Shown one piece after another: positions 2,861-45,129 of a stretch of 45,217 nt of DNA. A model generated the notes under the pieces. That model was not told the origin of the DNA, ran no database searches, and saw nothing but the letters and a program-made list of their open reading frames with translations. The position numbers and the translations under genes were made by a program. Position 1 is the stretch's first letter. Each line of letters begins with the position of its first letter. The stretch covers positions 1-45,217 of the forward strand of contig CAMEJG010000012.1 of assembly GCA_945919465.1 (NCBI GenBank), in the 5' to 3' direction. Source of the stretch: an uncultured Anaeroplasma sp. GTDB lineage: Bacteria > Bacillota_I > Bacilli_A > Acholeplasmatales > Anaeroplasmataceae.

Positions 2861-3073
2861 ATTTTTAAAAACCGGCTTCAATAAATACTATTATTTTAAG
2901 TTTTTATCATTTTCCCATATATTTATCTATTACGACAAATAAAAATTAAAAATAGGCCTATTTATATAAAAAAGCATTAAAAAAATCAAAAAAATACTAA
3001 AAATTTTTTAAAGGAACAATAAAATATAATATATACTAACAAGTAAAGTAATAAAAAATAATTTCAAACTACA

Positions 3074-3092
3074 ACTAGTTTTTACAACTAGT
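3074..3092. repeat. ACTAGT-N7-ACTAGT element, copy 1
   Basis: ACTAGT occurs at 3074-3079 and 3087-3092, 13 bases apart start to start. The same geometry recurs at 3185-3203 and 8013-8031. Confidence 0.6.
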
Positions 3093-3179
3093 AAATTATA
3101 TAAATTATATTAGATTAAAAATTATAAAATAATATTTATAATGTTTATTAATACTACATTGCAAAATAAATATTTCAAA

Positions 3180-3209
3180 GCATAACTAGTATTAAAAACT
3201 AGTTTATGC
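3180..3209. repeat. ACTAGT-N7-ACTAGT element, copy 2
   Basis: ACTAGT occurs at 3185-3190 and 3198-3203, again 13 bases apart. Here the flanks extend the symmetry (GCATAA on the left, TTTATGC on the right), so a hairpin with one bulge is possible. Confidence 0.6.
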
Positions 3210-3471
3210 ATTAATAAAATTACTATCAAAGTTTTATAAAATATGAATAGCGAGTATTAAAAATCATATAATTAAAAAATGCTTCTTTACATATTATTTT
3301 AAATGATGTATAATAATAAATCCAAGCCGTACACTTGAATTAAATATATGTAATTAACAATAAAAATAATTCATCACCTATTTAGTTTTAAAAATTATTT
3401 CTAAAGATGTTATACATAGAATGTAATAATATTAATTTCTATTATTGTTAGTTTTTTTTACTATTTGTTTT

Positions 3472-3500
3472 TTGAAATATTTTTATACGTTAATTAATAT
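3472..3500 (+). promoter_or_regulatory. Promoter of the nucleoside kinase gene
   Basis: TTGAAA (3472-3477), a 17-base spacer and TAATAT (3495-3500) fit a vegetative sigma-A promoter. It lies 70 bases before the start codon. Confidence 0.5.
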
Positions 3501-3569: not shown

Positions 3570-5216
3570 ATGAGAGTAGAAATAAATGGCATAATAAAAG
3601 AATTTAATAGTCCAACAAGAATAATTGATATGTTTGATAATAAAAACTATGATTATTTTGCTGCTAAAGTTAATAATAGATTGAGAGAATTAAACTATAT
3701 TGTAAGTAATGATTGCAAAATAGATTTATTAGATTTAACTGATGATTCTGTTACAAAAATATATCAAGCAACCTTAAGATACGTTATTGTAATGGCTGCT
3801 AAAAATCTATATCCAAAAGGAAGAATTTGCTTTAATTATAGTGTATCTAGATCTATTTTTGCATCCATGAGTAATATAGGACATGCTTTTTTGCAGGAGG
3901 ATTTAGAAAAGTTATCTATAGAAATACATAAGATAATTTCAGCTAATCATCCTATAAATAGATATTCATTAACTAAAGCAGAAGCAATTGAATACTATAG
4001 AAGCATTGGTCAAATGGACAAGGTTAAGGTATTAAAATATCGTCCAGAGGATACTGTTCATTGTTATGAATGCAATGGATATAAAAATTATATGTTTGGC
4101 TATATGCTTCCATCTACAGGCTTTTTAAAAAGCTTCTCACTAAGGTTATATACTCCAGGATTCTTAATTAGCTATCCTAGAAGTGAATGTGGAGGAAAAG
4201 TACCTGAATTTAAGGATGAAAAGGTATTTAGAACTGTATTAAAGGAAGCTAATCTTTGGGCAAACACCTCAAGAGCCGGTTCAATTAGTCAAATGAATGA
4301 AATAATCGAATCTGGAAATGCTCTTGAATTTATTAACATTTGTGAAGCAAAGCACAACAGACAATTTACTGAATTAGGTAATAAAATAGAATCAAATATT
4401 AATAATATTAAGCTTATTTGTGTTGCAGGACCTTCATCAAGTGGAAAAACTACATTTACAAATAGACTAAGAATAGAGCTTAAGAGTCGTGGAATAGAAC
4501 CTGTAATGATTAGTATGGATAATTTTTATAAATCACTTCAAGAAACTCCACTCGATGAATATGGTAATCCTGATTTTGAGAGTATTGAGGCTTTGGATTT
4601 AAGATTATTTGATAAAACAATATTTAATTTAATTCAGGGAGAAGAGGTTAAATTACCTATTTATGATTTCACAACAAAATCAAGAAGCTTCACAGAACCA
4701 ATTAAAATTAAACCTCATCAACCGATAATGGTTGAAGGAATTCATGGATTAAATGATTTAATTGCCACAAGTATTGGCGAGGAATATAAATTCAAAATTT
4801 ATATTGCTCCAATGGCTCAATATAATATTGATGATCATAATCCAATATCATTATCTGATATTAGATTGATAAGAAGAATGGTAAGAGATCATAATTTTAG
4901 AGGTACTGGCTGTGAAAAGACCCTAAAAATGTGGTCATCTGTAAGACGAGGAGAATTCAAATGGATATATCCTTATCAAAATAATGCAGATTATGTTTTT
5001 AATTCCGAATTAAGTTATGAGCTTTGCGTAATGAAAAAACATGCAATACCACTTCTAGAAGCAGTAAATACTGATTCTCCATATTATATTGCCGCAAATA
5101 GATTAGTTAAATTTTTAAAATATTTTGAAGATATCAACGATAAATGGATTCCTTGTAATTCATTATTAAGAGAATTTATTGGAGACTCAATATTTTATAC
5201 AGAAGATAAAAAATAA
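3570..5216 (+). CDS. TGS-domain nucleoside (uridine-type) kinase
   Basis: This 548-residue protein has a TGS-like domain (about 1-60), a threonyl-tRNA-synthetase-like second domain (about 65-265) and a uridine kinase/phosphoribulokinase-type P-loop kinase domain (about 280-500). The Walker A is GPSSSGKTT at 287-295, followed by 'SMDNFYK' and 'VEGIHGLND', typical of Udk-like kinases. This three-part architecture is common in Firmicutes and Thermotoga and is annotated as a nucleoside kinase; it probably phosphorylates uridine or cytidine in the cytoplasm. The best ribosome binding site, AAGGAGAAG (3538-3546), is 23 bases before the ATG, which is unusually far. No ATG, GTG or TTG lies between them in frame. 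Confidence 0.85.
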   Translation: MRVEINGIIKEFNSPTRIIDMFDNKNYDYFAAKVNNRLRELNYIVSNDCKIDLLDLTDDSVTKIYQATLRYVIVMAAKNLYPKGRICFNYSVSRSIFASMSNIGHAFLQEDLEKLSIEIHKIISANHPINRYSLTKAEAIEYYRSIGQMDKVKVLKYRPEDTVHCYECNGYKNYMFGYMLPSTGFLKSFSLRLYTPGFLISYPRSECGGKVPEFKDEKVFRTVLKEANLWANTSRAGSISQMNEIIESGNALEFINICEAKHNRQFTELGNKIESNINNIKLICVAGPSSSGKTTFTNRLRIELKSRGIEPVMISMDNFYKSLQETPLDEYGNPDFESIEALDLRLFDKTIFNLIQGEEVKLPIYDFTTKSRSFTEPIKIKPHQPIMVEGIHGLNDLIATSIGEEYKFKIYIAPMAQYNIDDHNPISLSDIRLIRRMVRDHNFRGTGCEKTLKMWSSVRRGEFKWIYPYQNNADYVFNSELSYELCVMKKHAIPLLEAVNTDSPYYIAANRLVKFLKYFEDINDKWIPCNSLLREFIGDSIFYTEDKK

Positions 5217-5359: not shown

Positions 5360-6451
5360 ATGGAATCAAAAAACTGTTTTTCCAATATTGATAGATTAAC
5401 CTATCCAAATGCATTAGTTATAGCTTTAACAAAGCTATATCAATTTAAGGGAAAAGATTTTTATTATGAAGATGTTCTAAAAAATTATATGGATGCAATA
5501 ATAAAAAACACTATAGAAAAAGATGCATTATATGTTTCTAAAATAATAAAGCTAAATATTTCAGAAAGTAGAACTAGATTAATTTTAAAGAAAAATAGCG
5601 AGCCTAAGACAAATGATGAAAAGATCCTTGCAAATTTAAAAAACGTCTTTAAAATAATCCAAGATAAGGGTACTGATTTTGAAGTAACCTCAAATGAATT
5701 TTTACATTTAGGAATAACATTATATAAAGGCGTTGAAAATATAAGCTATAATGTTGAGACTAAAACAACTAGACCTCATCTTTTAGAAGAGAAAACAAAA
5801 ATCTCTAAAAGAGAAGTTTTAGATGCTGAAATAAAAGAATTTAATGCTGCAATAAAGAATAAAAATGTTGAACCAACACAAGCAATAACTAATCTTTATG
5901 TAGATCTACTACATTTAAATTTATTTAATGATCATAATCAAATATTATCATTAATTATTCTATATTGTTTACTTGTAAAAGAGAGATTTAATCTCTTTAA
6001 ATACATAAGCTTTTTTGAAGAATATTACAAGAAAATAGAACAGTTTAGAGCATCAACAATCTCTGCAGGATTCAATTGGGAGACAGGATATTCACAAACA
6101 GCGCTGCTAAATAAAGATATAATTGACATGTTATTAGAGGGCTATGGTAAGGTTGAACAAATGATTGCTAACTTCAATTTTGATAAAAAAATCAAGAAAA
6201 TTGACAATGTAGAATCAGCAATTTTGAAACTTGGAGAGGTATTTACAAGGGAACAAATTAAGCAGGTTTGCCCACAATTATCAGACTCCACAATCAATAG
6301 AGCATTAGCTAGATTAAAGGATGAAAATAAGGTTAGACCAAATGGAACAGGAAGGTCTGCATCATGGGTTAGATTAGTTCCAGATGAACTATTTTCCCCT
6401 AAAACAAAACAAATGAATATATTTGATATTCTAGGATCTGAGGATAAATAA
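5360..6451 (+). CDS. Fic-like fold protein with degenerate active site and C-terminal winged helix
   Basis: The start is ATG 5360, with GGAG 7 bases before it; the frame is open further upstream but without a ribosome binding site. The protein has 363 residues. Residues about 115-270 follow the helical layout of Fic/DOC proteins: a loop 'THRPHLLEE'-like stretch, then a helix leading to 'LHLNLFNDHNQ' (184-194), then 'EEYYKKIEQFR' and a 'GFNW' segment. In active Fic enzymes the central motif is HPFx(D/E)GNGRxxR. Here only the His and scattered residues remain, and the Gly and Arg residues for nucleotide binding are missing. Residues about 285-338 form a winged helix-turn-helix ('FTREQIKQVCPQLSDSTINRALARL' region, then a basic wing), a common Fic partner domain. 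AMPylation is unlikely; a DNA-binding regulator is plausible. Confidence 0.5.
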   Translation: MESKNCFSNIDRLTYPNALVIALTKLYQFKGKDFYYEDVLKNYMDAIIKNTIEKDALYVSKIIKLNISESRTRLILKKNSEPKTNDEKILANLKNVFKIIQDKGTDFEVTSNEFLHLGITLYKGVENISYNVETKTTRPHLLEEKTKISKREVLDAEIKEFNAAIKNKNVEPTQAITNLYVDLLHLNLFNDHNQILSLIILYCLLVKERFNLFKYISFFEEYYKKIEQFRASTISAGFNWETGYSQTALLNKDIIDMLLEGYGKVEQMIANFNFDKKIKKIDNVESAILKLGEVFTREQIKQVCPQLSDSTINRALARLKDENKVRPNGTGRSASWVRLVPDELFSPKTKQMNIFDILGSEDK

Positions 6452-6468: not shown

Positions 6469-7194
6469 ATTTGCCATAAATAATGTCATATTAAAAACAA
6501 CAAAATATAAAACAAATAAAAATAACCAGGTGAAATAATTGGTATAAAACTCAAACTAAACATAGAAATGGATCGAGAATAAAATTTAATTTTAAATTGA
6601 TTTTTATTTATTAACTACCAATTATCAATAAACTAAAAAAATAAATAAATTATATTTTATTAAAAAAGAAGAAAAGATTCTACAAAAAATTTTTTATACA
6701 TAAATAATGTCAAAATAAAAAAAGAATTTAATAATAAAAAAAGAAGAATCTCAAACTAATAAAATCATTAAAATAAATAAAATAAAAAATAAATAAAAGA
6801 AATAAAAAAAGAATAAATAAAAGAAATAAAAATGAACATAAAAAAAACATAATATAATGTCAAATTTAGAATAATAATTTATTTAAAAAAAGAATCCTCT
6901 AAATATAATATAATTTTTAAAATTAAAAGAATTTTTTTATTATTATAGATTAATAATAGATTAATAAAACAAAATTGTAGAAATATGACATTAATTATGC
7001 TTAATTATAATTTTAAAATTATAAATATGTAAAATATAAAAAAATTATATAGAAAAAAATCGAAAAAAAATCTATTTATATTACAATAATAACTCATTTT
7101 ACAGACAATTGGATCTTATTATAGTTCTCATGAAGAAAAATGTAGTGTTTTTAGTTTGTATTTTTAAAAAAAACACCCTTAAAACAGGACAAAA

Positions 7195-7204
7195 GAAGAA
7201 GAAG
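7195..7204 (+). other. Possible FtsK-orienting type motif (GAAGAAGAAG)
   Basis: GAAGAAG is the FtsK-orienting sequence reported for lactococci. The copy here points toward the dif-like site 320 bases away. The motif is short and purine-rich in a purine-rich region, so chance is a real alternative. Confidence 0.2.
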
Positions 7205-7245
7205 TAAGCTAAAAAATGCCATTTTTAATAACGCTTTCAAAAGTT

Positions 7246-7291
7246 GTCGCTTCAAATCAGTATATATGGAGTCTCAGAGGTCGCTTCAAAT
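7246..7291. repeat. Direct repeat pair GTCGCTTCAAAT
   Basis: The same 12 bases stand at 7246-7257 and 7280-7291, 34 bases apart. They are GC-richer than their surroundings. Confidence 0.6.
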
Positions 7292-7525
7292 AAAATGAAA
7301 AATATTTAGGTTATAACCAAAAGACAAAGCGAGAAGGATAAGTGTTCAAATCAAGAAAATTCAATTAATCGAGTTTTCCATTATTTTGTCTTAAACATAT
7401 TCATTATTATATCTATGAAAGTGATTAATAGAAAAAATAACCTCAAAAAATACTTTTTTAGATATTCAAATGAATATATTTATCTTATTTAAAGACCAAA
7501 ATAGCCTAAAATAGCTCTTTAATTA

Positions 7526-7553
7526 AGTTATCATAATAGATATTATGTAAACC
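7526..7553 (+). other. dif: dif-like XerC/XerD recombination site
   Basis: A 28-base site of standard build: left arm AGTTATCATAA (7526-7536), 6-base centre TAGATA (7537-7542), right arm TTATGTAAACC (7543-7553). The right arm matches the Bacillus subtilis dif XerD arm TTATGTAAACT in 10 of 11 positions. The left arm ends in CATAA as in the E. coli XerC arm. The arms are imperfect inverted repeats sharing GTT and CATAA. Placement at the composition flip between converging gene sets supports a chromosome dimer resolution site. Confidence 0.75.
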
Positions 7554-7592
7554 AATAAAATAGTTAATAATGATGAGACTTTTTTTAAAAAT

Positions 7593-7608
7593 GTGATTAA
7601 GTGATTAA
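7593..7608 (+). repeat. Tandem GTGATTAA repeat
   Basis: GTGATTAA occurs twice in tandem (7593-7600, 7601-7608). A third copy lies at 7421-7428 on the other side of the dif-like site. Confidence 0.5.
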
Positions 7609-8012
7609 AAGAAAGCAAAATTGAGTACTACTTTTCTGTTTAAAATATTTCTTTTTTAGTTTTTTCTTCTAAAATCGATCGAGATTGAAAAAAACATCCA
7701 GTTATGCATTTGATTTTTATCTTTAGAACGCGTTCCTTTTGTTTAAAAAGTCATTTTTGGTCATGTTCCTTGTCGTTTTTAACTAAAAAACATATTCATT
7801 TTTTGAATTATGATAGCGTTTTTATTTTTTGCTTATGCCAGAGAATCGACATTTGTTTTCGTCCTTCTGGAGATGTTATTAGCTTTAATTTTTTCATTCA
7901 TTTTACTCGTTGGCACCTATAATGATGGATTGCTACTACCTCTAAAAATGTATTTATTTGTCGTTTTATCTTATTTATAATATTTAATAAACGTTTTATA
8001 AAATCTATTATA

Positions 8013-8031
8013 ACTAGTATCGTTTACTAGT
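8013..8031. repeat. ACTAGT-N7-ACTAGT element, copy 3
   Basis: ACTAGT stands at 8013-8018 and 8026-8031, with exactly the 13-base period of the two copies near 3.1 kb. Confidence 0.6.
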
Positions 8032-9099
8032 AATAATTTTAAATTTTTTATTTTTTTAATCTATAATTCCTATAAAAATAAATATATAAATCATACTCTT
8101 TTATTCATTTTATTATTTATTTTTTTGATATAAAATCTTGTTTTTAAAACTAAATAATCTTTAAAATCAATTCCTATATTTTTCTTTTCTTTTTCGACTG
8201 ATTTCTATTCAGATCTAATATATCTTTTTCTCTTATAACAGCGCTTCATTTTTCAATACTTTAATTATAAATTTATGTTTATTTAACTGGTTTTTTATAT
8301 TATTTTAAGAAATTATTAAAATTATATAATTTATGAAATTATTTTTCTGTAACAAATATTTTCTTCTATTAAATGATCTCTGATTTTATCTTTTACAATT
8401 ATTTATTGTTCATTTAATCAAATTAAGCTATTATATCCTTTAAAGTCATTAAAATGCGTAATTTTTACACTGTTTTTTAACATGATTAATTTTAAGGCTA
8501 TTTTTAGGCCATTTTTTAAGTTTTTATTTGTTTATATTATAAAATGTATGTATTTAAATATTAAATCAAATTTAAGGGTAAAATTTTGATTCATTTTATG
8601 GATTTACCTTTATCTTTAATATAAATTAGCTAATTATTTTATATTATTAGTCAACTATTGAATATATTTTTCTTCTTTTATAAATAGTTTTAATAACTTT
8701 ATTTATTAATTATCTATAATGTTATTAATGGTTATTAATACTATTTTAGTTTTGAATTTTTTTATTTTAGGTCATTAAATAAAAATTTAATAATTGAATA
8801 GTAATAATTAACTTTTATATTTAAATTATCATTTGGTTTTATACTTCTTTTTAAGATTTATTAACTTTATTTTTGTTGTATTAATAATAATTTTTTAGCT
8901 TATTTTTTTAAATAAACTAATACATGTTTATTCTTTATTTATTGGTCTTTCATTTATCTTAATTATGTTATTTCATTCATAATCTTATTTTAATAATTAT
9001 TTGTTTTAGTATTATTATTTTAAAATCTAGTTATTTAAACTATTTTTGTTTTGAAATATTTTTATTTATTATTTTATAGCCTATTATATATACTATAAA

Positions 9100-9127
9100 A
9101 ATAAAAACCGGATGATCAGTCCGGTTT
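9100..9127 (-). terminator. Rho-independent terminator of the GH95 gene
   Basis: AAACCGGA (9105-9112) pairs with TCCGGTTT (9120-9127) around a 7-base loop. On the minus strand it runs into TTTTTATTTTT. Confidence 0.9.
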
Positions 9128-11282
9128 AAAAATGTATTATTTTTTCATTCTCTAATATAAATTTATTGATGCTATTTTTATATTTTAGATTGATTAATTT
9201 TGATTTATTCGAATTATTTTTCAACTCAATATATTTGATTTTATTATTATCCCATTCTAAATTCATAATAATATTTCCCTTCAATAAAAATCCTTTTATT
9301 ATGCCAGACTCAAGACCTTCATCTGGTAGTGCTGGATGGATTTCTATTGTTTTTGAATCATCATTTATTATGAGCTCTGATATAGCTCTTGCAATACCAA
9401 AATTCCCATCTATTTGAAATGGAGGATGAAGATCCAATCCAGTTTTTGATGTGGAATTAGCAATAAATTCGTTAATGCTTTTTAATGCTTCATTTCCCAT
9501 TTTTAATCTTGCAAACATAGCAGTAATCCAAGCCTTAGACCAACCTGTATGGCCACCACCATATTTTAATCTTTTGTTTAATGTAAGAATTGAAGCATTA
9601 ATTAGCTCCTTATTATCTTTTATTTGGTTTGATGGAAAAAGAGCATATAAATGAGAAATATGCCTATGACCTAGTTCATACTCTTGATATTCTTGATTCC
9701 ATTCCATAATTCTTCCATCACTTCCAATTTTAATTTTAGGAAGCTTTTCTAATATTAATTGATATCTTAAATTTTCTTTATTTTTAATTTTTAATTCTTT
9801 ATTGATATTTATTGCGGCGATAAATAAATCTCTTAAAATTTGACTATCCATTTGAGCTCCATTAGATAAATTATATACTTTATTATCTTTAATATAACTA
9901 TTTTCTGGAGATAATGATGGAGATATTATTAATTCATGATTTTCATTTTCAATTAAAATATTTTCAAAGAATAAACAAGCATCATTTATTATGTACTCAT
10001 ATTCTTTTAGAAATTCTAAATCAAGTGTATATTCATAATATTCATAGATCAATAATGACAACCAAGCACCACCTAACATCCATAGGGTTGCTGGCATATA
10101 TTTATCCTGTGGGGCTACATCACCATAAATATCACTATTATGAAAGGCTAAAAAGCCCTCAACACCAAACATCTCTTTAGCTAATATAGTACCATTTTTA
10201 TGAATTCTTTTTAATAGATCAAAATATGGAATACTACATTCAGCTAAATTAGATTTAAAGACATTCCAATAATTCATCTCTAAATTGATATTAATTGTAT
10301 ATTTTGAATCCCATTTTGGAAAAATATCTTGATTCCATATTCCTTGAAGATTTAATGGTTGTGAATTTATTCTACTTCCTGAGATCATTAAATATCTAGA
10401 AAAATTATATAGATAGTTAATTTCATTATTATTAGTTTTAAATATTTGACGATTAAATAAAGAACTATAATCAGAAATATGTTTTTCTAATATAGTATTA
10501 TAGTCTAGATTTGTTAATTTGTCTCTACACCATTCATATATATCCTTATTATAAAATGTAGTTCTTAAAACTAAATATATGGTTGAATTTGAGGAATTTG
10601 AAATTATTATATTATCACCGATAATATTCATTTGTCCATCTGTTTTTACATTCGTTCTAATTAATAATGTATCATCATTATTGTATTTATAGGATAGAAT
10701 TAAATCATTATTTTCTATTTCAATGCTATCAAATATTTTTTCTCTATCTAATTCAATAGAAAAATTAATGGGATAATCTGATTTAATATTTATAACTATT
10801 AAATTGTTGGGATGAGATGCAAAATAGGTTCTTTCTATGTGATTATTATCATCTAGTACATAATTTACCTTTACTAATCCATTATCTAAATCTAATATTC
10901 TTTGGTATTCTTTATAATTTTGATTATAAAAGTTTATCCTTAATTCTCCTGCAACAGTATAAATACATTCGCCTTTAGGTGAAGAAAATAAAAATTTAGC
11001 TAATTCATGGGCCTCATCAAGCTTATCTTCTTGCATTAGTTTTTGTAAAATTGGATAATATTTTATGAAATCCTTATTATATCTTTTTCTATTTTTATTT
11101 CCTAACCATAGGCTATCCTCATTTAAGATTAGCTTTTCTTTAGTAGGATGTCCATATACCATAGCGCCCATTGTACCATTTCCAATGGGTAATGCATCAT
11201 TAAATGATTCTTTGTTATTTTTATTTGTATCAGCGTAAAAATCAAAATAATATTTATTATCTATATTTGTTAATTTATCCAT
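9126..11282 (-). CDS. Glycoside hydrolase family 95 alpha-L-fucosidase/galactosidase
   Basis: This 718-residue protein matches GH95 along its length: 'LPIGNGTMGAMVYG' (31-44) and 'NEDSLWLG' at the N-terminal beta-sandwich domain, 'NLQGIWNQD' and 'NINLEMNYW' (331-339) at the start of the (alpha/alpha)6 barrel, then 'ELGHRHISHLYALFP', 'GGGHTGWSKAW' and 'FQIDGNFG'. The Asn-Ile-Asn pair and the Asp of the last motif correspond to catalytic residues of the Bifidobacterium enzyme AfcA. The 'IMEW' Glu is in the expected place for the general acid. The family inverts alpha-1,2-linked fucose or galactose from host glycans and plant xyloglucan. There is no signal peptide, so it should act on imported oligosaccharides in the cytoplasm. 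It is a single gene with GAGGT before its ATG and its own terminator; no sugar transporter is adjacent. Confidence 0.9.
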   Translation of the reverse strand: MDKLTNIDNKYYFDFYADTNKNNKESFNDALPIGNGTMGAMVYGHPTKEKLILNEDSLWLGNKNRKRYNKDFIKYYPILQKLMQEDKLDEAHELAKFLFSSPKGECIYTVAGELRINFYNQNYKEYQRILDLDNGLVKVNYVLDDNNHIERTYFASHPNNLIVINIKSDYPINFSIELDREKIFDSIEIENNDLILSYKYNNDDTLLIRTNVKTDGQMNIIGDNIIISNSSNSTIYLVLRTTFYNKDIYEWCRDKLTNLDYNTILEKHISDYSSLFNRQIFKTNNNEINYLYNFSRYLMISGSRINSQPLNLQGIWNQDIFPKWDSKYTININLEMNYWNVFKSNLAECSIPYFDLLKRIHKNGTILAKEMFGVEGFLAFHNSDIYGDVAPQDKYMPATLWMLGGAWLSLLIYEYYEYTLDLEFLKEYEYIINDACLFFENILIENENHELIISPSLSPENSYIKDNKVYNLSNGAQMDSQILRDLFIAAININKELKIKNKENLRYQLILEKLPKIKIGSDGRIMEWNQEYQEYELGHRHISHLYALFPSNQIKDNKELINASILTLNKRLKYGGGHTGWSKAWITAMFARLKMGNEALKSINEFIANSTSKTGLDLHPPFQIDGNFGIARAISELIINDDSKTIEIHPALPDEGLESGIIKGFLLKGNIIMNLEWDNNKIKYIELKNNSNKSKLINLKYKNSINKFILENEKIIHF

Positions 11283-11346: not shown

Positions 11347-12514
11347 AATAGGCTTTATTTAATATTTCTAGAGCTTTACTATAATCTATTTCTATGATAT
11401 CCTTTAAGGTTCTTTTTCCATGGAACATTGCGTTATCAGCAAGCTTTTCTAAAGATTCTTTTGATACCTTTAATTCTCTTAATGAATTTGGCATACCAAT
11501 ATTTTTAAAGAATTCTTCAAGCTTATCTATTCCTTCTAATATATCACTATCATCTAAAGTATTTGGAATATTAAATACATAATTTGAGAATTTCTTAAAT
11601 CTATTAGGACAACCCTTATAACAGATTCTTGCCCAGCTTGGCCATAATGCAGCAAGTCCAGCTCCATGAGCTATTTCATCATACATACCTGATAATTCAT
11701 GCTCAAGCTGATGAACACTCATAAAAAATGATCTGCCACATGAAGTCAATCCATTATGAGATAAGGAATTAGCCCACATTAATGTTGCTCGGGCATTATA
11801 GTCTCTAGGATTAGCTATTACTATTTTTCCTGCATCATATACTGCTTTAATTAAGCCTAAGGCAATATTATCAGTTAATGGAGTGTCACTACCTAAAGAA
11901 AAATATCTTTCAAGTGTATGCATCATTATATCTGTAATTCCACATGCAGTTTGATATGGAGATACTGTATAGGTTAATTCTGGGTTTAATATTGCAAATA
12001 ATGGTCTATTTTCTTCCGAATTAAAGCCTCTTTTTTCTTTTGTTTCATCATTAGTAATTACACAGGAATTAGACATATCAGATCCTGCAGCACTAATTGT
12101 TAATATTACTCCTACAGGAATATGAGCAGTTGATGTTTTTTCTTTAATTGAAAATAGCCAAGGATTAAAATCAACTAATGCTCCATTAGAAATTGATTTT
12201 GCAGAATCAATTACAGAACCACCTCCAACTGCTAAAATAAAATCGATATTATTTTCTTTACAAAGCTTAACACCCTCTAATACTAAAGATAATTTAGGAT
12301 TTGGTTCTACTCCTCCTAATTCTATAAAATCGATATTATTTTCTTTTAATTTAGAAACTACTAAATCATATAACCCATTTTTCTTTATTGATGATTTACC
12401 ATAATGTAGTAGTACCTTTTTAAAGCCATATTCTTTAATTATTGTTCCAATCTTTTCTTCTTCTTTTTTTCCAAAATAAACCTTAGTTGGAGTATTATAT
12501 ATAAAATTATTCAT
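11345..12514 (-). CDS. Iron-containing alcohol dehydrogenase (BdhA/YqhD type)
   Basis: This 389-residue protein is a group III alcohol dehydrogenase. The dinucleotide motif is 'GGGSVIDSAKSI' (about 96-107). The metal ligands fit 'GITDIMMHTLE' (Asp and His), 'VHQLEHELSG' and 'EIAHGAGLA'. Similar enzymes (BdhA, YqhD) reduce butanal or other aldehydes with NADPH and serve fermentation or aldehyde detoxification in the cytoplasm. It is the last gene of the hemW operon and overlaps the end of deoB by 8 bases. Since deoB and DeoC-type reactions release acetaldehyde, aldehyde clearance would make sense, but that link is inference. Confidence 0.88.
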   Translation of the reverse strand: MNNFIYNTPTKVYFGKKEEEKIGTIIKEYGFKKVLLHYGKSSIKKNGLYDLVVSKLKENNIDFIELGGVEPNPKLSLVLEGVKLCKENNIDFILAVGGGSVIDSAKSISNGALVDFNPWLFSIKEKTSTAHIPVGVILTISAAGSDMSNSCVITNDETKEKRGFNSEENRPLFAILNPELTYTVSPYQTACGITDIMMHTLERYFSLGSDTPLTDNIALGLIKAVYDAGKIVIANPRDYNARATLMWANSLSHNGLTSCGRSFFMSVHQLEHELSGMYDEIAHGAGLAALWPSWARICYKGCPNRFKKFSNYVFNIPNTLDDSDILEGIDKLEEFFKNIGMPNSLRELKVSKESLEKLADNAMFHGKRTLKDIIEIDYSKALEILNKAY

Positions 12515-13688
12515 AAGAAATCTCCTTTAGAAATGATTTTCCAATTTTAGGTTGAGTAACATTAAACATTTCAGCAATGGTAGCCCCAATATCTGCAAAT
12601 GTATTTCTTATTCCTAAATTAGTTGGCTTTGAATTTTTAGAATAAACTAAAAGTGGTACATATTCTCTAGTGTGATCTGTGCCTCTCCATGTAGGGTCAT
12701 TTCCATGGTCTGCAGTAATAATTAATAAATCATCATCTTTTAAATAATTTAATAGTTCTTTAAGCTTTAAATCAAATTCCTCTAATGCCTTCTTATAGCC
12801 AATTGGGTCTCTTCTATGACCATATAATGCATCAAAATCAACCAAATTAACGAAGCATAATCCATTAAAATCAGTTTTAGCTATATCAATTGTAATATCC
12901 ATACCATTATCATTAGATACACTCTTATAGGCTTTAGTAATACCTTTAGTATTAAAAATATCATTTATTTTACCAACACTAATGACATCATAATTATTAT
13001 TTTTTAAAGAATCTAATACAGTGACATCAGTAGGACTTAATGCATAATCATGACGATTAGGAGTTCTTATAAAACTATTTTTATCCTCACCTATAAATGG
13101 TCTTGAGATAACTCTACCTACTAAATATTTTTCATCCATACATATTTCTCTTGCGATTTTTGATACTCTATATAATTCTTCTAACCCAAAATATTTCTCA
13201 TGTGCTGCAATTTGAAGTACACTATCACTTGAAGTATAAACGATCATCGCCCCAGTTTTGATATGCTCTTCACCTAATACCTTTAATATTTCAGTTCCAG
13301 ATGCCGCATAGTTACCGATTATTTTATGTCCAGTTTCCTTTTCAAGCTTTTCAATTAGCTCACTAGGAAATCCTGTATCAGTGAAGGTTAAAAATGGCTT
13401 TTTAGTTTCAATTCCCATAAATTCCCAATGTCCAGTCATAGTATCTTTTCCATTAGATAATTCATCCATTTTTCCATAGCTAGCTATAGTATCATTATTT
13501 TTATTTACTCCTAAAATATCAGTTAAATTACCAATACCCATTTTTTCTAAGGTATCAAGCTTTATTCCATTTGTACTTGCTGCAATATGACTTAAGGTAT
13601 TCGCACCCTCATCATTATATTTATATGATAATGGGGCACTACCACATCCAACAGAATCCATTACAATAATAAATGCTCTTTTATTCAT
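12507..13688 (-). CDS. deoB: Phosphopentomutase
   Basis: About 393 residues. Alkaline-phosphatase-superfamily metal motifs are clear: 'IVMDSVGCG' near the N-terminus, 'YTSSDSVLQIAAHE', and 'LIITADHGNDPTWRGTDHTREYVPLL' region near the C-terminus with its Asp and His metal ligands. The enzyme interconverts ribose (or deoxyribose) 1- and 5-phosphates, linking nucleoside phosphorylase to DeoC aldolase; both partners are encoded at 39.8-41.1 kb. ATG 13688 is chosen, with AGGAGG 9 bases upstream; an in-frame TTG one codon earlier has 6-base spacing and is a possible alternative. It overlaps the xer gene by 8 bases and the dehydrogenase gene by 8 bases, suggesting translational coupling. Confidence 0.95.
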   Translation of the reverse strand: MNKRAFIIVMDSVGCGSAPLSYKYNDEGANTLSHIAASTNGIKLDTLEKMGIGNLTDILGVNKNNDTIASYGKMDELSNGKDTMTGHWEFMGIETKKPFLTFTDTGFPSELIEKLEKETGHKIIGNYAASGTEILKVLGEEHIKTGAMIVYTSSDSVLQIAAHEKYFGLEELYRVSKIAREICMDEKYLVGRVISRPFIGEDKNSFIRTPNRHDYALSPTDVTVLDSLKNNNYDVISVGKINDIFNTKGITKAYKSVSNDNGMDITIDIAKTDFNGLCFVNLVDFDALYGHRRDPIGYKKALEEFDLKLKELLNYLKDDDLLIITADHGNDPTWRGTDHTREYVPLLVYSKNSKPTNLGIRNTFADIGATIAEMFNVTQPKIGKSFLKEISYE

Positions 13689-14631
13689 CAAAGTCTTCCT
13701 CCTTTTTATTTTTTAAAGCTAAAGGATGAGTATTATCATATAACTCAGTTAATCTAGATTTATCAATATGAGTATAAATTTGAGTTGTAGATATATCCTC
13801 ATGTCCTAATAATTCTTGAACTACTCTTAAATCAGTTCCACCCTCAAGTAAGTGAGTTGCAAAGCTATGTCTAATAGTGTGAGGAGATATTTCCTTTTCT
13901 ATATTACATTCCTTAGCTAAATTCTTAATATATTTAAAGAAATATTGTCTAGACATTTCACTACCCTTATAATTAAAAAATAATAAATTACTATTTATTC
14001 CCTTTGATAATTCTCCTCTAGCCTTTTCAATGTATTTACGTAATGAAATAACAGCCATTTCACCAATAGGTACTAATCTTTCTTTATTACCTTTACCAAT
14101 AATAGTTAAGTATTTTTCTCTTAAATGAACATCACTTATTTTTAAGCTTAATAATTCAGATATTCTTAATCCTGAAGCATATAGTGTTTCTACCATAGCC
14201 TTATTTCTTATGCCAATACTAGTATCAACATCAATACTATCAAGCATTTTATTTATTTCTTCGATACTTAATACTACTGGTAGCTTTTTATCTATTTTTT
14301 GAGTTTCAACATATAAAGCAGGATCTTCTTTTGTAATATCTTCTTTTTTTAAATATTTATGAAAATCCTTTATAGCTATTAATTTTCTAGAAATAGTTCT
14401 TTTTGATAACTCTTTTCTTTTTAATGAATCAATATAACTAATAATATCTTCTCTTTCAATATCTATAACATCATTAATCTTTCTATAGGTATTTAAATAT
14501 TTTGCATATTGTTCTAAATCACTAATATAAGCTGAAATAGTATTATCACTTAATCTCAAATCATCACTTAAGTGATATTTAAAATCAGATATTTCATAAA
14601 ATATTACTTCATCTTCCTTTTTCTTTTTCAT
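13681..14631 (-). CDS. xerD: Tyrosine recombinase XerC/XerD
   Basis: This 316-residue protein has an N-terminal SAM-like DNA-binding domain (about 12-95) and a catalytic domain (about 115-300). The six catalytic residues are present: R156 (ASGLRISEL), K180 (GKGNKERLVPI), H251 and R254 (HTIRHSFATH), H277 (LLGHEDIS) and Y286 (IYTHI). XerC/D resolve chromosome dimers at dif during division, driven by FtsK. A dif-like site lies at 7526-7553, so this is a good candidate for one of its recombinases. Whether it is the C or D paralogue, or the only one, cannot be decided here. Its ATG overlaps the hemW stop (ATGA). Confidence 0.9.
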   Translation of the reverse strand: MKKKKEDEVIFYEISDFKYHLSDDLRLSDNTISAYISDLEQYAKYLNTYRKINDVIDIEREDIISYIDSLKRKELSKRTISRKLIAIKDFHKYLKKEDITKEDPALYVETQKIDKKLPVVLSIEEINKMLDSIDVDTSIGIRNKAMVETLYASGLRISELLSLKISDVHLREKYLTIIGKGNKERLVPIGEMAVISLRKYIEKARGELSKGINSNLLFFNYKGSEMSRQYFFKYIKNLAKECNIEKEISPHTIRHSFATHLLEGGTDLRVVQELLGHEDISTTQIYTHIDKSRLTELYDNTHPLALKNKKEEDFDE

Positions 14632-20381: not shown

Positions 20382-20415
20382 GCTTAAAAGGAACTATAAT
20401 ATCAAAATGATATTC

Positions 20416-20503
20416 CATACTATCCCTACGCTAGCATTACCTAGATCAGGTCATGGGTCGATAACTAAATATCCTCTCAGCCAAAAAGGCTCCCCTTAAT
20501 ATG
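20416..20503 (-). promoter_or_regulatory. TPP riboswitch (THI element)
   Basis: Read on the minus strand, it has GGGGAGCC, CTGAGAGG, then GACCCATGACCTGATCT and GGTAATGCTAGCGTAGGGA, the conserved TPP aptamer order. The closing P1 helix pairs CATATT (20503-20498) with AGTATG (20421-20416). It precedes thiM and a terminator. Binding of thiamine pyrophosphate should shut off the whole salvage operon. Confidence 0.95.
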
Positions 20504-20511
20504 ACAAATTT

Positions 20512-25700: not shown

Positions 25701-26029
25701 GTAGCTTATAAGCCATGTTCTGTTCCTTGCGGTGGTAGCTATTTATCTACGATTAATCGTCCCTATCTTACTTTTATTCGCTTAATAGAGCTCCCCTACC
25801 ATAATTTGGGTTTCTAGCTTGCGGGGTTTACCAACGTTTCATTTCTTCGTTTCCAAAGACATCGTTTCTGTGGCACTTTAGAGAATACACCATATCAAAG
25901 ACTTAGGCTTCTTCCGCCGTCACCTAAAGGTGCCTGACCTTATTTATTAAATCAGCACAAACACTACAATCATCTCAGATTGTGCTAGCATGGACTTTCC
26001 TAACACTATGTGCTCAGCTACCAAGCTAC
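25701..26029 (-). ncRNA. rnpB: RNase P RNA (Bacillus type B)
   Basis: Read on the minus strand the conserved blocks appear in order: GGAAAGTCCATGCT near the 5' end, a P-loop region with GGTGACGG, CCACAGAAACGATG, GGTAAACCCCGC, and GAACAGAACATGGCTTA near the 3' end. GTAGCTT at the 5' end and AAGCTAC at the 3' end close helix P1. This is the catalytic RNA that matures tRNA 5' ends. The length of about 329 bases is normal, although the ends are set by the P1 helix rather than measured. Confidence 0.95.
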
Positions 26030-44799: not shown

Positions 44800-44835
44800 T
44801 AAAAAAAAAGTCCTAGAATTTAACATTCTAAGGAC
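44800..44835 (-). terminator. T-box attenuator terminator before ileS
   Basis: GTCCTAGAAT (44810-44819) pairs with ATTCTAAGGAC (44825-44835) with one bulge; on the minus strand nine T follow. Confidence 0.85.
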
Positions 44836-45020
44836 GAATTATCGCGGTACCACCTTAGTTCTATACATAAATATAGCACTCATTTCTCTTAACGCGAGCC
44901 ACGGGTATTCATTTCCTAATACCTATTCATCCAGTGATCAAAATAATACTATTATATTAGCTTTCACCAATGCTAACTCTCTGTAATAAATCATATTATT
45001 TACTTTGGAATCCTTATATT
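44800..45020 (-). promoter_or_regulatory. T-box leader of ileS
   Basis: On the minus strand the T-box sequence AAGGTGGTACCGCGA (44857-44843) precedes the terminator. Further upstream, AGAGAGTTAG and GGTGAAAGCTAA belong to Stem I, followed by GATCACTGGATGAA. The ATC at 44938-44936 is in the specifier position, reading as an isoleucine codon. Uncharged tRNA-Ile should favour the antiterminator and switch ileS on. The 5' end is approximate; no clear promoter could be fixed. Confidence 0.92.
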
Positions 45021-45129
45021 TGATATACTCTTCTATTTTACAATATAAAATATTAATTGTAAAGAAATAATTTTTTAAAAACTATGACATAAAAGAAGCA
45101 ATTACAATTAAAAAAATAGTATTTCTAAT

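Follow-up and report, generated by a model that had tools for sequence, protein, structure and literature searches.

Gene organization around the dif site

The window analyzed here, that is, the whole stretch of 45,217 bases, is one entire contig (C12) of a draft Anaeroplasma genome made up of 2,100,341 bases in 89 unordered contigs and 97.7% complete. At positions 7526-7553 of the plus strand, it carries a 28-bp site that is very probably the dif site of the Anaeroplasma chromosome. On the left side, two genes are found on the plus strand, a udk-like kinase gene (3570-5216; PRK domain, PF00485, with synteny) and its downstream partner, a gene encoding a Fic-fold protein of 363 residues (5360-6451). 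On the right side, the minus strand carries deoB, encoding phosphopentomutase (12507-13691; NF003766/TIGR01696), and xerD (13681-14631; NCBIfam TIGR02225, 363 bits for a cut-off of 329.6). The order udk, Fic-like gene, dif, deoB, xerD is conserved, and synteny places deoB between dif and xerD. The first-pass annotation described mainly rightward genes to the left of the site and leftward genes to its right, together with a Xer recombinase about 6 kb away. This description holds, the recombinase being XerD, at 6.1 kb.

About 2.6 kb of noncoding DNA (6490-9125) surrounds dif. It is followed by a GH95 glycoside hydrolase gene (9126-11282), located between dif and an iron alcohol dehydrogenase gene. 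A tblastn search of the dif regions of the 17 other Anaeroplasma genomes did not recover this GH95 gene, which hence looks inserted here. About 6 to 9 kb to the left of dif, several relatives carry two conserved genes for proteins of 663 and 938 residues; judged by the start of their sequences only, these proteins look like the topoisomerase IV subunits ParE and ParC. Finally, the minus strand of the window gives ordinary Rfam matches to an RNase P class B RNA (25704-26029), a T-box leader (44827-45023), and a TPP riboswitch (20406-20506), all unrelated to the features discussed below.

The dif site and its conservation

The site reads AGTTATCATAA TAGATA TTATGTAAACC. It is composed of two 11-bp arms with partial dyad symmetry, a XerC-type arm (7526-7536) and a XerD-type arm (7543-7553), separated by a central 6 bp (7537-7542). 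This is the 11-6-11 layout read by the first-pass annotation, which also matched the right arm to the XerD arm of Bacillus subtilis at 10 of 11 positions; we count the same 10 identities with the B. subtilis arm, which we take to be TTATGTAAACT. A scan of the genome for further matches and an alignment among related genomes had been proposed as checks, and both support the assignment. No second match is present in the 89 contigs at up to 3 mismatches over the 22 arm bases. Two other exact occurrences of TTATGTAAAC (XerD arm), on contigs C4 and C8, lack the left arm and were thus discarded as dif sites. With a loosened pattern, shuffling of the window yields about 2 chance matches at 3 mismatches, while dif is the only match without mismatch in the window and its own reverse strand scores 2 mismatches. 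The site goes beyond chance because it is exactly conserved in other genomes. Indeed, 18 Anaeroplasma genomes, including this one, each contain one full site of the form AGTTATCATAA-n6-TTATGT[A/T]AACC, with arms identical save for one A/T position. All 18 sites lie in noncoding DNA where the AT skew goes from plus to minus. Anaeroplasma bactoclasticum ATCC 27112 (NZ_QXEV01000008.1) carries the same site, and the genomes of the genus that lack a match are mostly incomplete bins. The central hexamer is TAGATA here and TATATA in most congeners.

In other genera of the order, the site has the canonical form (C/G)TTCCTATAA-n6-TTATGTNAAC, with exactly one copy per genome wherever it was found. Within the family, genera with this canonical dif have it at the equivalent place, with the udk/Fic-like gene pair on one side and deoB-xerD-hemW on the other. 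Thus, the left arm of Anaeroplasma is most simply read, from these sequence comparisons, as a derived form of the usual arm. An exact site of the Anaeroplasma type, AGTTATCATAATATATATTATGTTAACC, is also found on a Paenibacillus contig (L048, CALYLO010000005.1), so this left arm occurs outside Mollicutes as well. Short motifs recur in the dif flanks of congeners, AAACATATTCAAA near positions -147 and -82, ACATAAATAATGT near -500 to -1070, and AGAAGAAG near -300 to -346 relative to dif. Another motif, M3 (ACATAAATAATGTC), is too variable to serve as an exact marker of the terminus.

A flip in plus-strand composition at the site was also claimed by the first-pass annotation and is recovered at the level of the contig. 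In the window, the cumulative skews of the plus strand reach their maxima at 7625 (GC) and 7620 (AT), both within 86 bp of the dif center (7539). In the genus, all long contigs examined have their AT-skew switch at dif; the maximum falls at most 413 bp from dif on seven of seven long contigs, and the AT skew pooled from the 18 genomes crosses zero less than 300 bp from the site.

The machinery for dimer resolution is present. Three tyrosine recombinases are encoded in the genome, XerD, a second Xer located beside trmFO on another contig, and one more. We call the second one XerC by its context and sequence rather than by a family model, the place beside trmFO being the usual xerC/codV position. 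A single FtsK with a gamma domain was identified (PF09397, 64.4 bits for a cut-off of 30.6), which also matches PF01580. By analogy with known XerCD/dif systems, XerC would bind the left arm and XerD the right arm of dif. FtsK would travel along polar A/G-rich motifs toward dif and set off XerCD recombination, which would convert chromosome dimers to monomers. A KOPS-like motif pointing to dif, AGAAGAAGAAG, is found at 7194-7204 of the plus strand. Over seven contigs, GAAGAAG points toward dif 173 times and away from it 10 times. In the noncoding flanks of dif the ratio is 35:0, a cleaner count since gene strand confounds the count in coding DNA. In Lactococcus lactis, KOPS is GAAGAAG or GAGAAG (PMC6466248). 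The polarity of GAAGAAG is only suggestive of a KOPS role in Anaeroplasma.

Overall, the site shares with the XerCD/dif system of B. subtilis (CodV/RipX, Bsdif) its 28-bp length, the 11-6-11 layout, a single copy at the skew switch, the XerD arm, two recombinases, and an FtsK with a gamma domain. It differs by its XerC arm, AGTTATCATAA here and of the ACTTCCTATAA type in sister genera, and by the proximity of xerD, found about 3-5 kb from dif in congeners and 6.1 kb from it here. A recombinase gene near the site is also a feature of the single-recombinase systems XerS/difSL and XerH/difH. However, XerS/difSL combines one recombinase with a 31-bp site and a center of 11 bp (PMC5357621 for the center), whereas a 6-bp center and two recombinases, XerD and the second Xer, are found here. 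Thus, the earlier proposal that the site marks the probable replication terminus is supported by the single match in the genome, the conserved arms, the skew switch, and the presence of XerC, XerD, and FtsK-gamma. As dif was already predicted in one Tenericutes genome by Kono et al. (PMC3025954), a dif site in Mollicutes is not new, and its assignment alone is ordinary. The first-pass annotation did not mention the polar palindromic array around dif, which we judge the more interesting part.

A polar element brackets dif

Word counts in the dif flanks of congeners gave the palindrome ATCTAGT-n7-ACTAGAT. Allowing at most one mismatch, it occurs 2-8 times per genome, at 47 places in the 13 dif-bearing congeners scanned; 36 of these places are on the dif contig, less than 4.5 kb from dif, and a reversed control pattern gave 6 matches in the same 13 genomes. 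Many copies bear a tail on one side at a fixed distance, and the element is therefore asymmetric, that is, polar. Its full length is about 36 bp, with ATCTAGTnTTnAAnACTAGAT, n6, TGAAATT, and then a T-rich run.

A position weight matrix (PWM), built by leaving out each genome in turn and used with a threshold of 16 bits, locates seven copies in the window, two of them strong. To the left of dif, a copy at 3058-3093 (minus strand, 29.7 bits) with its tail away from dif is followed by the strong copy at 3169-3204 (minus strand, 36.2 bits; E-value of 4.6e-8 with a sequence HMM). Then comes a weaker divergent pair with 66-bp spacing, made up of 3365-3400 (minus strand) and, as its inward member, 3446-3481 (plus strand), upstream of udk. 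To the right, on the plus strand, two degenerate copies at 8135-8170 (17.5 bits) and 8726-8761 (16.2 bits) precede the second strong copy at 9025-9060 (32.4 bits; HMM E-value of 7.1e-6).

The element is confined to the surroundings of dif. In the 18 Anaeroplasma genomes, 98 copies pass the PWM threshold in the 195 kb lying at most 6 kb from dif. Farther out, another 405 kb of these contigs contain none; 240 kb drawn from twelve further contigs of this genome likewise gave no match, and 3.9 Mb of shuffled DNA gave a single one. The HMM, built without this genome, was run on 37 whole genomes, and 91 of its 94 matches at an E-value of at most 1e-5 are near dif; the model was trained on 48 Anaeroplasma (g1) sites, and some of the Anaeroplasma matches are these training sites. 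The three others correspond to clusters located elsewhere; one genome has such a cluster upstream of lepA and two have one upstream of truB. Their coordinates are L196:6340-6517, L197:6434-6546, and L198:4944-5123, upstream of lepA or truB-ribF.

Orientation follows a simple rule. Counting unique positions, the tail points outward in 46 copies and inward in 3 to the right of dif, and outward in all 14 copies within 3.2 kb to its left. In the udk promoter region, 22 of the 31 positions are outward and 9 inward, because divergent pairs spaced by 43-44 or 65-66 bp occur there. Thus, two groups of elements with opposite orientations bracket the terminus. Some distances from dif recur, for example +415 to +480 and -834 to -877. 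The identity, the localization, and the polarity of the element were all obtained by computation, as were the identity and conservation of dif.

Two other explanations of the element as a nucleic acid signal were discarded. No -10 box is conserved in either direction, at odds with a promoter. An RNA hairpin or terminator does not fit either, since mismatches fall independently in the two half-sites and, in the sense direction of the genes, the hairpin is not followed by a U-run.

Distribution of the array and sharpness of the skew switch

All 18 Anaeroplasma genomes examined have the element near dif, within about 5 kb. The PWM trained only on Anaeroplasma also detects it around dif in five further genera of the family, in each of the 14 genomes examined (56 copies outward, 4 inward), and in none of 14 genomes from three other families, two of which have the same gene order by dif. 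The genomes are related to each other, so that such counts are not independent, and many are metagenome bins. A de novo search for dyads ranked TCTAGT-n7-ACTAGA first both in Anaeroplasma and in the group of other genera, and returned nothing similar in families f2, f3, and f5. In genus g12, elements are present, none of them upstream of udk or of the Fic-like gene.

If a tight fork trap operates, the switch in strand composition is expected to be pinned to it. In windows of 4 kb on either side of dif, the AT-skew maximum lies at most 412 bp from dif in 26 of the 26 genomes with the array vs. 4 of the 11 genomes without it (Fisher p = 3e-5; Mann-Whitney p = 0.0015, both values being too optimistic because the genomes are related). 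In genomes without the element, the switch is scattered over kilobases. Some of these genomes also have a sharp switch at dif, and skew amplitudes overlap between the two groups.

Possible functions of the array

The array is family-specific, polar, and centered on dif, and no described system fits it exactly; no paper dealing with terminus elements of Anaeroplasma turned up in our search of the open-access literature. We are highly confident that the site at 7526-7553 is dif and that the array is a real feature specific to the terminus, a judgment that leaves fork arrest aside.

An arrangement of polar sites on both sides of dif, with opposed orientations, is the anatomy of a replication fork trap. 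On this ground we propose, with a probability of roughly 0.4, that the array may be a fork trap analogous to Tus/Ter and RTP/ter, proper to Anaeroplasmataceae and unrelated to either. It would be compact, extending less than about 5 kb from dif, and would pin fork fusion there, with the Fic-fold protein, a DUF1836 protein, or another protein as possible binder. A protein bound to the element would let a fork pass toward dif and stop a fork leaving it, and forks would thereby fuse at dif. Only two fork traps have been described, Tus/ter and RTP/ter (PMC6549158; PMC10331603). They are unrelated and restricted to four clades, Tus being reported only in gamma-proteobacteria and RTP only in a subgroup of Bacillales (PMC6549158). 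Like the ter sites of B. subtilis, the elements are short and polar and form two groups of opposed orientation, one on each side of dif. In B. subtilis, each ter site is built from two inverted repeats that are imperfect, about 0.1 kb separates terI from terII, and rtp maps between terI/terII and terVIII (PMC13220808); the element is mostly palindromic, and the pairs spaced by 43-66 bp upstream of udk and the Fic-like gene resemble, by analogy, the close divergent pair terI/terII. However, there is no obvious sequence similarity between the element and ter, and the array spans about 5 kb on each side while ter sites occupy about 10% of the chromosome. Polar sites with opposed orientations around dif are also a feature of the Tus/Ter system of Escherichia coli and its relatives, but Tus binds a non-palindromic site as a monomer and the sequences differ.

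Other readings of the array have to be weighed against a fork trap. The elements might be sites for a protein that organizes the terminus, either holding it together in the manner of MatP/matS or freeing SMC near dif, with no fork block. The palindromic core, the presence of several copies, and their restriction to the terminus, a feature shared with matS, would agree with such a role, and in B. subtilis the XerD homologue RipX unloads SMC at the terminus (PMC13220808). We nevertheless hold it to be rather unlikely, since the element has a polarity that is reversed from one side of dif to the other, which an organizing site would not need, and is by inspection unlike the XerD arm. Moreover, matS sites are non-polar, and the array, spanning about 5 kb, is far smaller than the matS domain of E. 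coli. Slightly less likely still, the elements could serve a transcription regulator as operators, its targets lying near dif by chance, with the udk cluster autoregulatory and the other copies acting as decoys or regulating antisense transcripts. Divergent pairs 43-66 bp apart in the udk promoter, clusters upstream of lepA and truB, and a related palindrome conserved in the DUF1836 gene promoter of four species are what operators could look like. Most copies, however, are located downstream of convergent genes rather than in promoters and face away from dif. In addition, no -10 box is conserved after the tail, nothing is conserved before the palindrome, and for copies to the right of dif there is no evident target gene.

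Two further readings appear more remote. Each genome has several similar copies in long noncoding stretches, which could suggest a dispersed repeat of the REP or MITE type that built up in relaxed intergenic DNA near dif. This is improbable in view of the strict orientation rule, the recurring distances, the presence in six genera with diverged flanks, and the near absence of the element elsewhere in the genomes. The other reading concerns the 28-bp site itself, which would be a chance look-alike or the attachment site of an integrated element, the true dif being elsewhere. The draft state of the genome and the TAGATA center, vs. TATATA in most congeners, leave a very slight chance for it, against which stand the uniqueness of the site in the genome, its orthologous place in a conserved gene order, the skew switch, and the absence of a second copy nearby.

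Candidate binding proteins

Two candidates are proposed for the protein that would bind the element. The first is the Fic-fold protein encoded at 5360-6451, the conserved left neighbor of dif (alignment A1); its start at 5360 was assigned by means of the alignment and the ribosome-binding site. It has no significant match in Pfam, while its sequence profile matches PDB 8uqu (E-value of 2.4e-27) and its AlphaFold2 model (pLDDT 85) is matched by Foldseek to the same structure (TM-score of 0.90 on target). It lacks the catalytic HPFxxGNGR motif and has a conserved C-terminal winged helix. Because its gene is sited between elements and dif, this winged-helix protein is possibly the element binder. 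It is not a certain one, and its case is weakened. Indeed, the protein is also present in the element-less families f2, f3, and f5, the gene adjoining dif in f1, f2, and f5, and in genus g12 the elements are not upstream of it.

A DUF1836 protein is the second candidate. A related palindrome, ATCTAGTTTACAAtACTAGTT, is found in the divergent promoter of its gene in four species, including this one. The gene is at L203:5178-5768 (G000:C7), the other loci being L200, L201, and L202. No other family-specific gene for a DNA-binding protein was found within 9 kb of dif.

Significance for the Anaeroplasmataceae

If the array is a fork trap, it would be the third one, independently evolved, very compact, centered on dif, and present in wall-less Mollicutes. 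How fork fusion is linked to dimer resolution could then be tested directly, with sister families as natural controls since they have the same dif neighborhood and the element is missing. Even with another function, a polar element confined to the terminus in six genera would be an unexplained feature of the chromosome with a clear anatomy.
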